The position numbers and the translations under genes were made by a program. A stretch of DNA of 64,000 nt from Fusobacterium perfoetens (lineage in GTDB: Bacteria; Fusobacteriota; Fusobacteriia; Fusobacteriales; Fusobacteriaceae), in NCBI RefSeq assembly GCF_021531595.1, contig NZ_JADYUD010000002.1:124001-188000 (forward strand), written 5' to 3'. Shown here piece after piece: positions 51,952 through 56,484 of this stretch; position 1 is the stretch's first letter, and each line of letters begins with the position of its first letter. A model generated the notes under the pieces. The model was not told the origin of the DNA, ran no database searches, and saw only the letters and a list, made by a program, of their open reading frames with translations.

Positions 51952-51980
51952 TTGACAAGATGTAATTTTTGAAGTATACT
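51952..51980 (+). promoter_or_regulatory. carAB promoter
   Basis: TTGACA (51952-51957), 17 bases, TATACT (51975-51980); predicted start near 51988, giving a leader of about 200 bases before carA. Confidence 0.88.
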
Positions 51981-52017: not shown

Positions 52018-52140
52018 ATGATGAGGAAAGAATGTATGAAATCAGGAAATAACATTTTTTCATGGGTTAAGTCATTTTTTAGTGTTTTCTCAATATTTTT
52101 TAATTTTATTTTTGAATTTAATTTTGTAGCCAAGATATAA
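52018..52140 (+). CDS. carAB leader peptide (40 aa, U-rich, Phe-rich)
   Basis: ORF between promoter and attenuator: starts ATGATG, with GGGAGG eleven bases upstream, and has an in-frame ATG at 52036 after GAGGAAAG. Ten of the 40 residues are Phe because the RNA has repeated U tracts (six T at 52055, 52075 and 52096, further runs to 52125). The stop codon (52138-52140) lies in the left arm of the terminator stem. A ribosome that keeps up with polymerase would therefore block the terminator. This matches the design of the E. coli pyrBI leader, where slow transcription through U tracts under low UTP allows readthrough. Confidence 0.75.
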   Translation: MMRKECMKSGNNIFSWVKSFFSVFSIFFNFIFEFNFVAKI

Positions 52141-52164
52141 CATTTTAGTTATATCTTTTTTTTT
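52133..52164 (+). terminator. carAB attenuator terminator
   Basis: Perfect stem AGATATAAC (52133-52141) / GTTATATCT (52148-52156), six-base loop, and nine T. It sits between leader ORF and carA, so unconditioned transcription would stop here. Confidence 0.9.
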
Positions 52165-52187
52165 ATAAAATATTTGGGAGGTTTTTA

Positions 52188-53222
52188 ATGAAAGGAAAAT
52201 TAATTCTTGAAAATGGTAAAGTTTTTGAAGGAAAAATTTTTGGGGAATTAGCAGATTCTGTCGGAGAGATTTCTTTCAATACAGGTATGACCGGATATCA
52301 GGAAATGCTTACAGATCCTGCAGGACATGGACTTATGATGGTTATGACTTATCCAATGATAGGGAACTATGGAATAAATACAGAGGATATGGAATCAGAC
52401 AGAATACATTTAAGAGCTCTTATAATAAAAGAAGATGCGAAACTACCTAATAACTTCAGATGTGAAATGACTTTAGATGGATTTTTAAGACAATATAATG
52501 TTACAGGATTTAAGGGAGTTGATACAAGATACCTTACTCAAATTATAAGAGATAACGGAAGCATGAAAGCTATAATAACAGCTGAAGATTTAACAAAAAA
52601 AGAAATTCAAGAAAGATTTGAAAGCTTCTCAAATAAAAATGCAGCAAAAGAAGTAAGTTGTAAAGAAAAATATGAAATTAAAGGTGAAGGAAAAAGAATA
52701 GGTGTTCTTGATTTAGGAGTAAAAAGAAGCACACTGGATTATCTAAAATCAGAAGGATTTGATGTGGTTGTATTCCCTTATAATACAACAGCAGAAGAAA
52801 TATTAAACGAAAATCTTTCTGCACTTATAGTTTCAAATGGGCCAGGAAATCCTGAAGATTTATCAGAAACAATAGAAGAACTTAAAAAACTTATAGGAAA
52901 AGTTCAAATATTTGGAGAAGTTTTAGGACATCAGGTTCTTGCTCTTGCTCTTGGAGGAAAAACAGCAAAACTTAAATATGGACATAGAGGAGGATATCCT
53001 GTAAGAGATATGAAAACAGGAAAAGTTATAATAACTTCTCAAAACACAGGATATGTTGTAGAAGAACTTCCTGAAGGTGTAGAAATGACTCATCAAGGAA
53101 TAAATGTAAAAACAATAGAGGGAATGAAAAGTGAAGCTTTAAAAGTTACAGGTGTACAATTTATGCCTGATTTATATGAAAGTCCAAAAGATGTTTTTGT
53201 AAACTTTTTAAAACTTGTTTAA
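52188..53222 (+). CDS. carA: carbamoyl-phosphate synthase small subunit with inactivated glutaminase site
   Basis: 344-aa small subunit. The N-terminal domain (1-150, with YPMIGNYGIN and FRCEMTLDGFL) and class I amidotransferase fold (about 170-340, with SNGPGNPED) are clear. The catalytic triad is not: the nucleophile Cys of the usual GICLGHQ is Val (IFGEVLGHQ, V245), and the His and Glu of the usual QYHPE become Met and Asp (QFMPD, M326 and D328). The fold and partner surface look kept, but glutamine hydrolysis should be impossible. The complex would then use free NH3, plausible in an ammonia-producing amino-acid fermenter. Transcribed with carB from the attenuated promoter; RBS GGGAGG. Confidence 0.93.
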   Translation: MKGKLILENGKVFEGKIFGELADSVGEISFNTGMTGYQEMLTDPAGHGLMMVMTYPMIGNYGINTEDMESDRIHLRALIIKEDAKLPNNFRCEMTLDGFLRQYNVTGFKGVDTRYLTQIIRDNGSMKAIITAEDLTKKEIQERFESFSNKNAAKEVSCKEKYEIKGEGKRIGVLDLGVKRSTLDYLKSEGFDVVVFPYNTTAEEILNENLSALIVSNGPGNPEDLSETIEELKKLIGKVQIFGEVLGHQVLALALGGKTAKLKYGHRGGYPVRDMKTGKVIITSQNTGYVVEELPEGVEMTHQGINVKTIEGMKSEALKVTGVQFMPDLYESPKDVFVNFLKLV

Positions 53223-53277: not shown

Positions 53278-56200
53278 ATGTTGGATAAATCAATAAAGAA
53301 AGTATTAGTAATAGGTTCAGGACCAATTATCATAGGACAGGCAGCAGAATTTGACTATTCAGGAACACAAGCTTGCGAAACTTTAAAAAGTGAAGGAATA
53401 GAAGTTGTTCTTATAAACTCAAACCCTGCTACAATAATGACAGATAAAACTGTTGCAGACAGAATATATGTAGAACCTATCACAGCAGAATTTGTTGAAA
53501 AGGTAATAGCTAAAGAAAGACCAGATTCTCTTCTTGCAGGAATGGGAGGACAGACAGCTCTTAACCTTGCAGTAGAACTTACAGAAAAAGGAATCTTAGA
53601 AAAATATGGTGTAAAAGTTATAGGAACATCAGTTGAATCAATAAAAAAAGGTGAAGACAGGGAAATATTCAGGGAAACTATGGAAAAAATAGGAGAACCT
53701 TGTATAGAAAGTGAAATAGTTGAAAGCCTTGAGCATGGAAGAGATGTTGCAAAAGAAATAGGATATCCTGTTGTTGTAAGACCTGCTTACACAATGGGAG
53801 GAACAGGGGGAGGAATTGCAAACAACCCTAAAGAACTTGAAGAAATTCTTTTAAAAGGACTTGCACTTTCAAGAGTTGGACAAGTTCTTATAGAAAAATC
53901 AATCCTTGGATGGAAAGAAATAGAATACGAAGTAATGAGAGATAAAAACGGAAACTGTATTACAATATGTAATATGGAAAATGTTGACCCTGTAGGAATT
54001 CATACAGGAGACTCAATAGTTGTTGCTCCAACTCAAACACTTACTCATAAAGAAGCAGTGATGCTTAAAAAATCAGCTTTAAAAATTCTTGATGAAGTAG
54101 GGGTTGTAGGAGGATGCAATGTTCAGTTTGCTCTTCATCCAAAATCAATGAAATATGCAATTATAGAAATTAACCCAAGAGTTTCTCGTTCATCAGCTCT
54201 TGCATCAAAAGCAACAGGATACCCTATTGCAAGAGTATCAACTAAGCTTGCTTTAGGATACAATCTTGATGAAATAGTAAATGAAGTTACAGGAGAATCA
54301 TATGCTTGTACAGAACCTACAATAGACTATATAGTTGCAAAAATTCCTAAATGGCCTTTTGATAAATTCAGAAATGCCAATAAAGTTCTTGGAACAAAAA
54401 TGATGGCAACTGGAGAAGTTATGTCAATAGGTGACAACTTTGAAGCAGCATTCTTAAAAGGACTTAAATCACTTGAAATAGGAAGATTTAACCTAGAGCA
54501 TCCAGCAGTTAAAAAACTTACAATGGAAGAACTTAAAAAAGCAGTTGTAAGACCTGACGACGAAAGAATTTTCGTGGTTGCTGAAATGCTTAGAAGAGGA
54601 TATATAAAAGAAAAATTACAAAAAATTACAGGTATAGATAAATTCTTCATGGAGAAAATTGAATGGCTTGTAAAACAGGAAGAAATTTTAAAGAAAACTA
54701 AATTTAAAGATTTAGATGTTCAATATTTAAGAAAATTAAAGAAAAAAGGATTCTCTGATAAAGGAATTGCTGAACTTATGGGAGTAAGTGAAGAAGATAT
54801 AAGAAGCAAAAGACTTGAGCATGGAATAATCCCTGCATATAAGAGAGTTGATACTTGTGCTGCAGAATTTAAAGCACAAACTTCTTACTTATACTCAACA
54901 TATGATGAGCATGATGAAGTTGAAGTTGAAAACAGAAGAAAGATAATAGTTATAGGTTCAGGACCTATAAGAATTGGACAAGGAATAGAATTTGACTACT
55001 GTACAGTTCATTCAATAAAAACTTTAAAGAAAATGGGAATTGAAAGTATAATTATAAATAATAACCCTGAAACAGTATCAACTGACTATAATACAGCGGA
55101 TAGATTATACTTTGAACCTTTAATTTTAGAAGATGTTCTTAACATTATAGAAAAAGAAAAACCAGAAGGAGTAATTCTTCAGTTTGGAGGACAAACAGCA
55201 ATAAAACTTGCAAATGCTCTTGCTGAAAGAGGAATAAAAATTCTTGGTACATCAGCTGAAAAAATAGATGAAGCTGAAGACAGAGAAAAATTTGAAGAAA
55301 TGATGGAAGAACTTGATATAAAAAGACCAAGAGGAAGAGCAGTATGGGATATTAATCATGGTATAGAAATTGCAAATGAAATAAAATACCCTGTTCTTGT
55401 AAGACCTTCTTATGTTCTTGGAGGACAAGGAATGGAAATTTGCCATGATGAATATAACCTTGTAAAATATCTTGAATCATCATTTGACAGAGATCCTGAA
55501 AACCCAGTTCTTATAGATAAATATCTTAACGGAATTGAACTTGAAGTAGATGCAATTTGCGATGGTGAAGATGTTCTTATACCTGGTATCATGGAACACC
55601 TTGAAAGAGCAGGAGTTCACTCTGGAGACTCAATAACAGTATATCCACAACAAAATTTATATGAAGGAACAGAAGAAAAAGTTCTTGAAATAACAGCAAA
55701 AATTTCTAAGGCTCTTGGAACAAAAGGTATGATGAACATTCAGTTTATAGCTTATGAAAATGAGCTTTATGTAATTGAAGTAAACCCAAGATCATCAAGA
55801 ACAGTACCATATATTTCTAAAATCTCAGGACTTCCTGTTATAGAAATAGCTACAAGAATAATTTTAGGGGAAACTTTACATGAAATAGGTTATGGAACAG
55901 GAATTTATAAAAAACCAAATGTTGTTGCAGTAAAAGTACCTGTATTCTCAACAGAAAAATTATCAAATGTTGAAGTATCTCTTGGACCTGAAATGAGATC
56001 AACAGGAGAAGTTTTAGGAATAGGAAATACAGTGGATGAAGCAATATATAAAGGACTTCTTGCAGCAAAAAGAGTTCATAAAGTTTCAGGAAGAAAAATA
56101 CTTCTTACTATAAGAGATAAAGATAAAGAAGAGTTCTTACCAGTTGCTAAAGAACTTATAGATTTAGGATGTACTTTATATGCAACAGCAGGAACACAAA

Positions 56201-56484
56201 AATATCTTGAAGGACATGGTGTTAAAGCTGAAGTTGTAAGAAGAGTAGGAGAAGCAGAACCAAATATTCTTACAATGCTTATGAACAGACAGGTTGACCT
56301 TCTTATAAATACTCCTACAAAAGCAAATGATGCTCAAAGAGATGGATTTAAAATGAGAAGAACAGCTATAGAATATGGTGTAGAAGTTCTTACTTCAATA
56401 GATACTTTAAATGCAGTTATAAGAATGGAGAAAAAACATCTTAAAGAAGGAGAACTTGAAATATTTGATATTTCAAAATTATAA
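53278..56484 (+). CDS. carB: carbamoyl-phosphate synthase large subunit
   Basis: 1068-aa enzyme joining bicarbonate, ammonia and two ATP to carbamoyl phosphate for pyrimidines and arginine. It shows the duplicated synthetase halves ([23 protein letters not shown] at 12-34 and [15 protein letters not shown] near 560), two ATP-grasp domains, an oligomerisation segment (about 400-550) and the C-terminal MGS-like allosteric domain (about 935-1068, [15 protein letters not shown]) where UMP and ornithine act in E. coli. Full length, no lost motif noticed. Starts 55 bases after carA. Confidence 0.96.

Follow-up and report, generated by a model that had tools for sequence, protein, structure and literature searches.

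The window, the whole 64,000-nucleotide stretch of Fusobacterium perfoetens DNA analysed here, carries a carAB operon for the two subunits of carbamoyl phosphate synthetase (CPS), with carB starting 55 bases after carA and a candidate leader upstream (Table 1). The translation of carA is exactly that given in the initial annotation. Its product contains both a CPSase_sm_chain domain (PF00988) and a class I GATase domain (PF00117) in Pfam, and matches the NCBIfam model of glutamine-hydrolysing CarA, TIGR01368, at 354.7 bits, above the cut-off of 307.35. The product of carB is likewise firmly assigned by Pfam and NCBIfam. These CarA proteins are currently annotated as 'glutamine-hydrolyzing'.

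Table 1. Features of the carAB region, in window coordinates.
Feature	Position	Strand	Basis or remark
Promoter-like sequence, TTGACA-17-TATACT	51952..51980	+	11 of 12 positions
Putative Phe/U-rich leader ORF (MMRKECMKSGNNIFSWVKSFFSVFSIFFNFIFEFNFVAKI)	52018..52140	+	Similar leaders upstream of other carA genes examined
Terminator-like hairpin with T run at leader end, candidate attenuator	52132..52166	+	10-bp stem, -8.9 kcal/mol
carA, CPS small subunit, glutaminase triad replaced	52188..53222	+	344 aa; Pfam/NCBIfam, triad alignment, AlphaFold model
Val245 codon (E. coli Cys269, nucleophile)	52920..52922	+	Alignment; Cys in 60/60 intact rows
Met326-Pro327-Asp328 codons (E. coli His353-Pro-Glu355)	53163..53171	+	Alignment
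CarA post-triad loop LYESPK	53172..53189	+	Invariant P358-G359-P360 of intact CarA lost or shortened
carB, CPS large subunit	53278..56484	+	Tested synthetase and gate residues intact
carB 5' part (residues 1-400, carboxyphosphate half), ancestry probably shared with degenerate carA	53278..54477	+	Separate N-half and C-half trees
CarB helix face His257, Ala260, Val261, Lys264 (E. coli D258, Y261, Q262, R265)	54046..54069	+	Altered in triad-less lineages

The leader hairpin and its run of nine T lie just ahead of the carA ribosome site. A simple terminator scan demanding at least three G-C pairs gave no match upstream of carA, because the stem is A+T-rich, and the Rfam scan, which covered the carA side, found no known RNA family there at gathering score. 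A leader ORF and a terminator-like hairpin also precede the other readable carA genes, intact and degenerate alike, and a similar Phe-rich leader with a hairpin stands before pyrB of the window genome (L151, 3340-3608). In E. coli, pyrBI is controlled by UTP-sensing attenuation. The carA and pyrB leaders resemble the pyrBI type, a likeness that would tie the degenerate carAB operon to pyrimidine supply.

The initial annotation had claimed that the Cys, His and Glu of the glutaminase triad are all replaced, by Val245, Met326 and Asp328, and that the alignment is secure. Both claims are borne out: the solved E. coli CarA (1a9x/1bxr/1m6v) aligns to the window protein continuously through both triad motifs, without gaps, and for this reason the correspondence of Cys269 to Val245, His353 to Met326 and Glu355 to Asp328 is secure. 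In place of the Cys-His-Glu of glutamine-hydrolysing CarA, the window protein thus has Val-Met-Asp (V/M/D). Glu244 stands at the position of E. coli Ile268, just before the nucleophile. Other positions of the glutamine pocket have changed too (S47A, H312T/A, D334V and D244N in V/M/D). With all three triad residues lost, this CarA most likely no longer hydrolyses glutamine. The glutaminase fold appears to be retained, since the AlphaFold model, built with 25 sequences, has a pLDDT of 89.5 and a TM score of 0.93 to E. coli CarA (1cs0_B).

Each of the three triad residues is kept in every one of 60 CarA rows from other Fusobacteriota (58 distinct genes and two duplicate rows), a reading that covered Leptotrichia-like genomes in part; Cys-His-Glu is also found in 13 of 13 non-fusobacterial relatives. 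The only Fusobacteriota CarA without it, among those read, are the relatives of the V/M/D gene and one further gene. Given this invariance, the V/M/D triad must be regarded as far beyond chance. It occurs in four independent assemblies with 79-83% identity, namely the window genome (G000), two others of its genus (G034, G036) and one of another genus of the family (G024), and their agreement rules out sequencing error. In these genomes, of four species, the V/M/D protein is the sole CarA. Three sister-genus genomes (G026, G027, G029) each carry an intact and an S/M/D carAB operon, both complete and separated by 9-15 kb, and the single CarA of G030 reads S/L/E. G048, of a further genus of the family, has G/N/E, a separate loss. 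In G035, carA is broken over contig ends, with the N-terminal part on C7 and the C-terminal part and carB on C4, probably through an assembly break inside the gene.

Triads were also read for the best 30 and 25 of the weakest matches in a TIGR01368 search of 389 genomes. Among these, two CarA outside the Fusobacteriota lack the triad, each apparently the only CarA of its genome: that of G304 (Ser/Tyr/gap), which adjoins a purF-like gene, and that of G291 (G/Q/E), which lies directly 3' of pyrK and pyrD. The triad has thus been lost in at least three lineages beyond V/M/D and S/M/D, two of them outside the Fusobacteriota; from the cases of G048, G304 and G291, triad-less CarA therefore arises repeatedly. 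The initial annotation had looked to the Fusobacteriota as a whole. The loss does map on the tree, though to one derived clade (V/M/D, S/M/D, S/L/E) and the separate G/N/E gene rather than phylum-wide.

This variety bears on the idea that the rebuilt pocket (Glu244-Val245, Met326, Asp328) serves a new chemistry or acts as a sensor, for instance by binding a regulator or another nitrogen donor. The conservation of Met-Asp within V/M/D and S/M/D and the predicted survival of the fold are what would be expected of such a pocket, but the residues differ from lineage to lineage (V/M/D, S/M/D, S/L/E, G/N/E, G/Q/E), unlike one new active site, and we regard this idea as most improbable.

The degenerate CarA is under purifying selection in both domains, relaxed in the glutaminase domain. 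In V/M/D pairs dN/dS is 0.06-0.09 for the N-terminal domain, against 0.03-0.08 in intact pairs, and 0.12-0.26 for the glutaminase domain, against 0.03-0.14. A slow N-terminal domain beside a relaxed but constrained glutaminase domain fits the earlier suggestion that CarA is kept as a structural or allosteric partner. That carA is a pseudogene is contradicted by reading frames that are open in every copy, by low dN/dS, by the good model and by the CarB residues kept.

The window genome (2.06 Mb, 99.94% complete) was searched for other sources and uses of carbamoyl phosphate. The whole-genome search found no second carA, intact or otherwise, a point on which the initial annotation had left its reading to depend, and there was no match to carbamate kinase. 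The one carbamoyltransferase is PyrB, the aspartate transcarbamoylase (ATCase), whose gene opens a full pyrB-K-D-F-C-E operon that lies 8.3 kb downstream of carB, just outside the window. All six pyr genes are clustered in 10 of the 10 relatives checked, including V/M/D, S/M/D, S/L/E and G/N/E genomes. With a sole carA, no carbamate kinase and ATCase as the only outlet, CarAB would have to feed the pyrimidine pathway without glutamine hydrolysis and is most simply read as ammonia-driven; the earlier proposal of ammonia dependence gains support from the same gene content. Another genome, G021 (1.9 Mb, 99% complete), has intact carAB and no carbamoyltransferase match; its assembly may have a gap there, or its CarAB is an orphan.

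Glutamine dependence could have been kept if a separate glutaminase docks on CarAB or CarB and supplies the ammonia. The window genome does have glutamine synthetase, and its GuaA and PdxT are intact class I enzymes that keep their triads (the GuaA motif reads AVCYG, not GxCxG), so that the triad loss is specific to CarA and glutamine chemistry is generally retained; a general loss of class I glutaminases is ruled out. Against a docked glutaminase, however, are the single carA, the ordinary character of the other class I domains (GuaA, PdxT and a DJ-1-like protein), and the slow N-terminal domain of CarA with its kept adjacency to CarB, through which the docking site appears occupied. We consider such an enzyme very unlikely.

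CTP synthase (PF06418) is absent from the window genome and from all six family genomes with a triad-less CarA as their only CarA, although one of these, G034, is only 86% complete. It is also absent from about 19 of 55 other family genomes (Fisher p = 0.003, a value that ignores relatedness), and both non-fusobacterial triad-less genomes have it. Since the window genome lacks this enzyme, pyrimidine salvage must matter and the de novo pathway could be a minor flux; in genomes without CTP synthase, CTP may come from salvage. This absence would also fit a reading in which the operon is decaying, CarAB yields no carbamoyl phosphate and the cell lives on salvage, a reading with which the faster evolution of the glutaminase domain would also agree. 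Decay is nevertheless difficult to reconcile with the open frame of every copy, the low dN/dS, the kept catalytic residues of CarB, the complete pyr operons, the conserved leader and terminator architecture and the fact that G026, G027 and G029 maintain a degenerate carAB although they also have an intact one. This makes decay a highly improbable account, and a functional, ammonia-dependent CarAB remains the preferred one.

CarA trees join V/M/D with S/M/D and S/L/E (support 97/96) in a clade that includes the long-branched G048, and the three are still joined when the triad columns are removed (support 98). They also have derived motifs in common, for example DLGVK(R/N)ST. In a whole-CarB tree V/M/D and S/M/D are not joined, whereas residues 1-400 join them (SH-aLRT 96) and residues 541 to the end group by the resident type of each genus. 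This disagreement between the two halves explains the whole-CarB result and makes the operon a mosaic. The degenerate module would thus consist of carA and the ammonia-using half of carB, the 3' half having probably been replaced or homogenised by recombination. Both the triad-free CarA tree and the CarB N-half tree argue against independent convergent loss in V/M/D and S/M/D, and they support one origin for the two in CarA and in the CarB N-half, with the long branches as a caveat. In the window genome and G024 the operon occupies the ancestral carAB locus, beside a GrdX-like gene. Where intact and degenerate carAB coexist (L051 of G027, L054 of G026, L050 of G029), the 3' part of carB is homogenised in a gene-conversion-like manner. 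By ORF reading without profile search, genes for an M20-family peptidase and a YfcC-like transporter lie between the two operons of G027.

The CarB adjacent to carA keeps both ATP-grasp halves, all catalytic residues tested and the gate residues C232, A251 and A314. In CarB of G304 (L267, 1862-5143), gate Cys232, invariant in 63 intact rows, is Thr. The changes common to V/M/D and S/M/D cluster at E. coli CarB 253-265, a cluster recorded before the triad-less cases outside the Fusobacteriota were found. In intact CarB (65 sequences) D258 is conserved in 60/61, Q262 in 57/61 and R265 in 61/61. Changes at 258, 261, 262 or 265, whose i, i+3, i+4, i+7 spacing places them on one helix face, are seen in all five triad-less groups, with D258 and Q262 changed in four each and R265 and Y261 in three each. 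Among conserved positions, lineage changes occupy 12 of 50 cells in CarB 250-268 and 17 of 700 in the rest of the N-half (Fisher p = 4.5e-8); for the two non-fusobacterial lineages alone the figures are 7 of 20 and 11 of 280 (p = 3.9e-5), both p-values being optimistic because the exact limits of 250-268 were set after looking.

On the side of CarA, V/M/D and S/M/D have lost or shortened the P-G-P loop (E. coli 358-360), and G291 has an altered one; the published E. coli tunnel mutant G359F (PDB 1m6v) lies in this same loop. We take CarB 258-265 to be positioned against CarA 358-361 in E. coli CPS, and the 'perforated tunnel wall' triple mutant that Kim and Raushel described in 2004 reportedly combined CarA P360A/H361A with CarB R265A. 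The changes in the loop and in the helix face would thus lie along the seam that keeps glutamine-derived ammonia inside in the normal enzyme. The interface changes in CarB may reflect relaxed constraint and not adaptation.

Taken together, CarAB of the window is very probably an ammonia-dependent CPS that serves pyrimidine synthesis, with CarA retained as a structural partner. CarA would hydrolyse no glutamine and would instead shape the CarB complex, while free NH3 would have direct access to the carboxyphosphate site of the CarB N-half, its probable way in being the interface between CarA and CarB, at which the ancestral ammonia tunnel has a remodelled wall. Carbamate would then move on to the C-half of CarB, which is intact, and carbamoyl phosphate to PyrB. 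In this explanation we infer ammonia as the donor, its entry route and the UTP-type attenuation. Free NH3 is plentiful in amino-acid-fermenting anaerobes. When its glutamine tunnel is blocked or perforated, E. coli CPS can still work with external ammonia (PMC4655335); against our reading, the unmodified E. coli enzyme requires ammonia at very high levels (PMC6245113). We also propose, tentatively, a recurrent bacterial ammonia-type class of CPS, in which, after loss of the glutaminase, CarA and the CarB N-half evolve and are exchanged as a module that opens the interface tunnel wall to NH3, and the CarB C-half becomes homogenised with that of the resident operon. Some species would then have glutamine and ammonia isozymes for the same ATCase and others the ammonia form alone. 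Beyond the initial annotation, the analysis adds the history of the module, the recurrence of triad loss, the coexistence of isozymes and the signature on the CarB helix face.

Human CPS1 has lost its catalytic Cys and its tunnel (PMC4655335). Like vertebrate CPS1, in which that class I Cys is Ser, the window CarAB combines a glutaminase-like shell with an altered tunnel and an intact synthetase (PMC4655335). Unlike CPS1, which is mitochondrial, fused, activated by N-acetylglutamate and part of the urea cycle, it is built from two separate subunits descended from bacterial CarAB, has each residue of the triad replaced and shows PyrB as its one visible outlet. The triad loss arose independently of CPS1, and the likeness to it would be convergent. 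There is no fused polypeptide of the CPS1 lineage, carA and carB being separate genes; the nearest relatives of the window CarA are fusobacterial CarAB, and human CPS1 is a far weaker match than E. coli CarA in a PDB search. The CarB C-half, where CPS I has its N-acetylglutamate site, follows the resident bacterial type.

With the glutamine-dependent CarAB of E. coli and other Fusobacteriota, the window operon shares its subunits, CarB catalytic residues, operon order, GrdX-like neighbour and fold; it differs in lacking Cys-His-Glu and the P-G-P loop and in its altered pocket and CarB 258-265 face. A recent review gives glutamine as the physiological nitrogen donor of E. coli CPS, and we found no report of a bacterial triad-less CarA in the literature. 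The genomes with triad-less CarAB look like natural exceptions to this rule that arose several times, and their cells should resist glutamine analogues at the CPS step. The engineered E. coli enzymes C269S (1c30) and G359F (1m6v) are similar in being substituted at the nucleophile and at the tunnel-closing loop, but they are laboratory point mutants, whereas the window CarAB has many changes, in both subunits and under selection; the tunnel positions altered in it lead directly to hypotheses about the entry of NH3 into CPS. CPS III of the fish Alcolapia has shifted from glutamine towards ammonia with its triad kept and one glutamine-binding residue lost, and works in the urea cycle (PMC7657897). 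A convergent shift of the same kind would have taken place in the window CarAB, where, unlike in Alcolapia, the triad itself is gone. The evolutionary series from intact through S/L/E and S/M/D to V/M/D, with intact and degenerate forms together in one cell, makes the switch from glutamine to ammonia known from the fish-to-tetrapod transition open to study in small, expressible bacterial enzymes.
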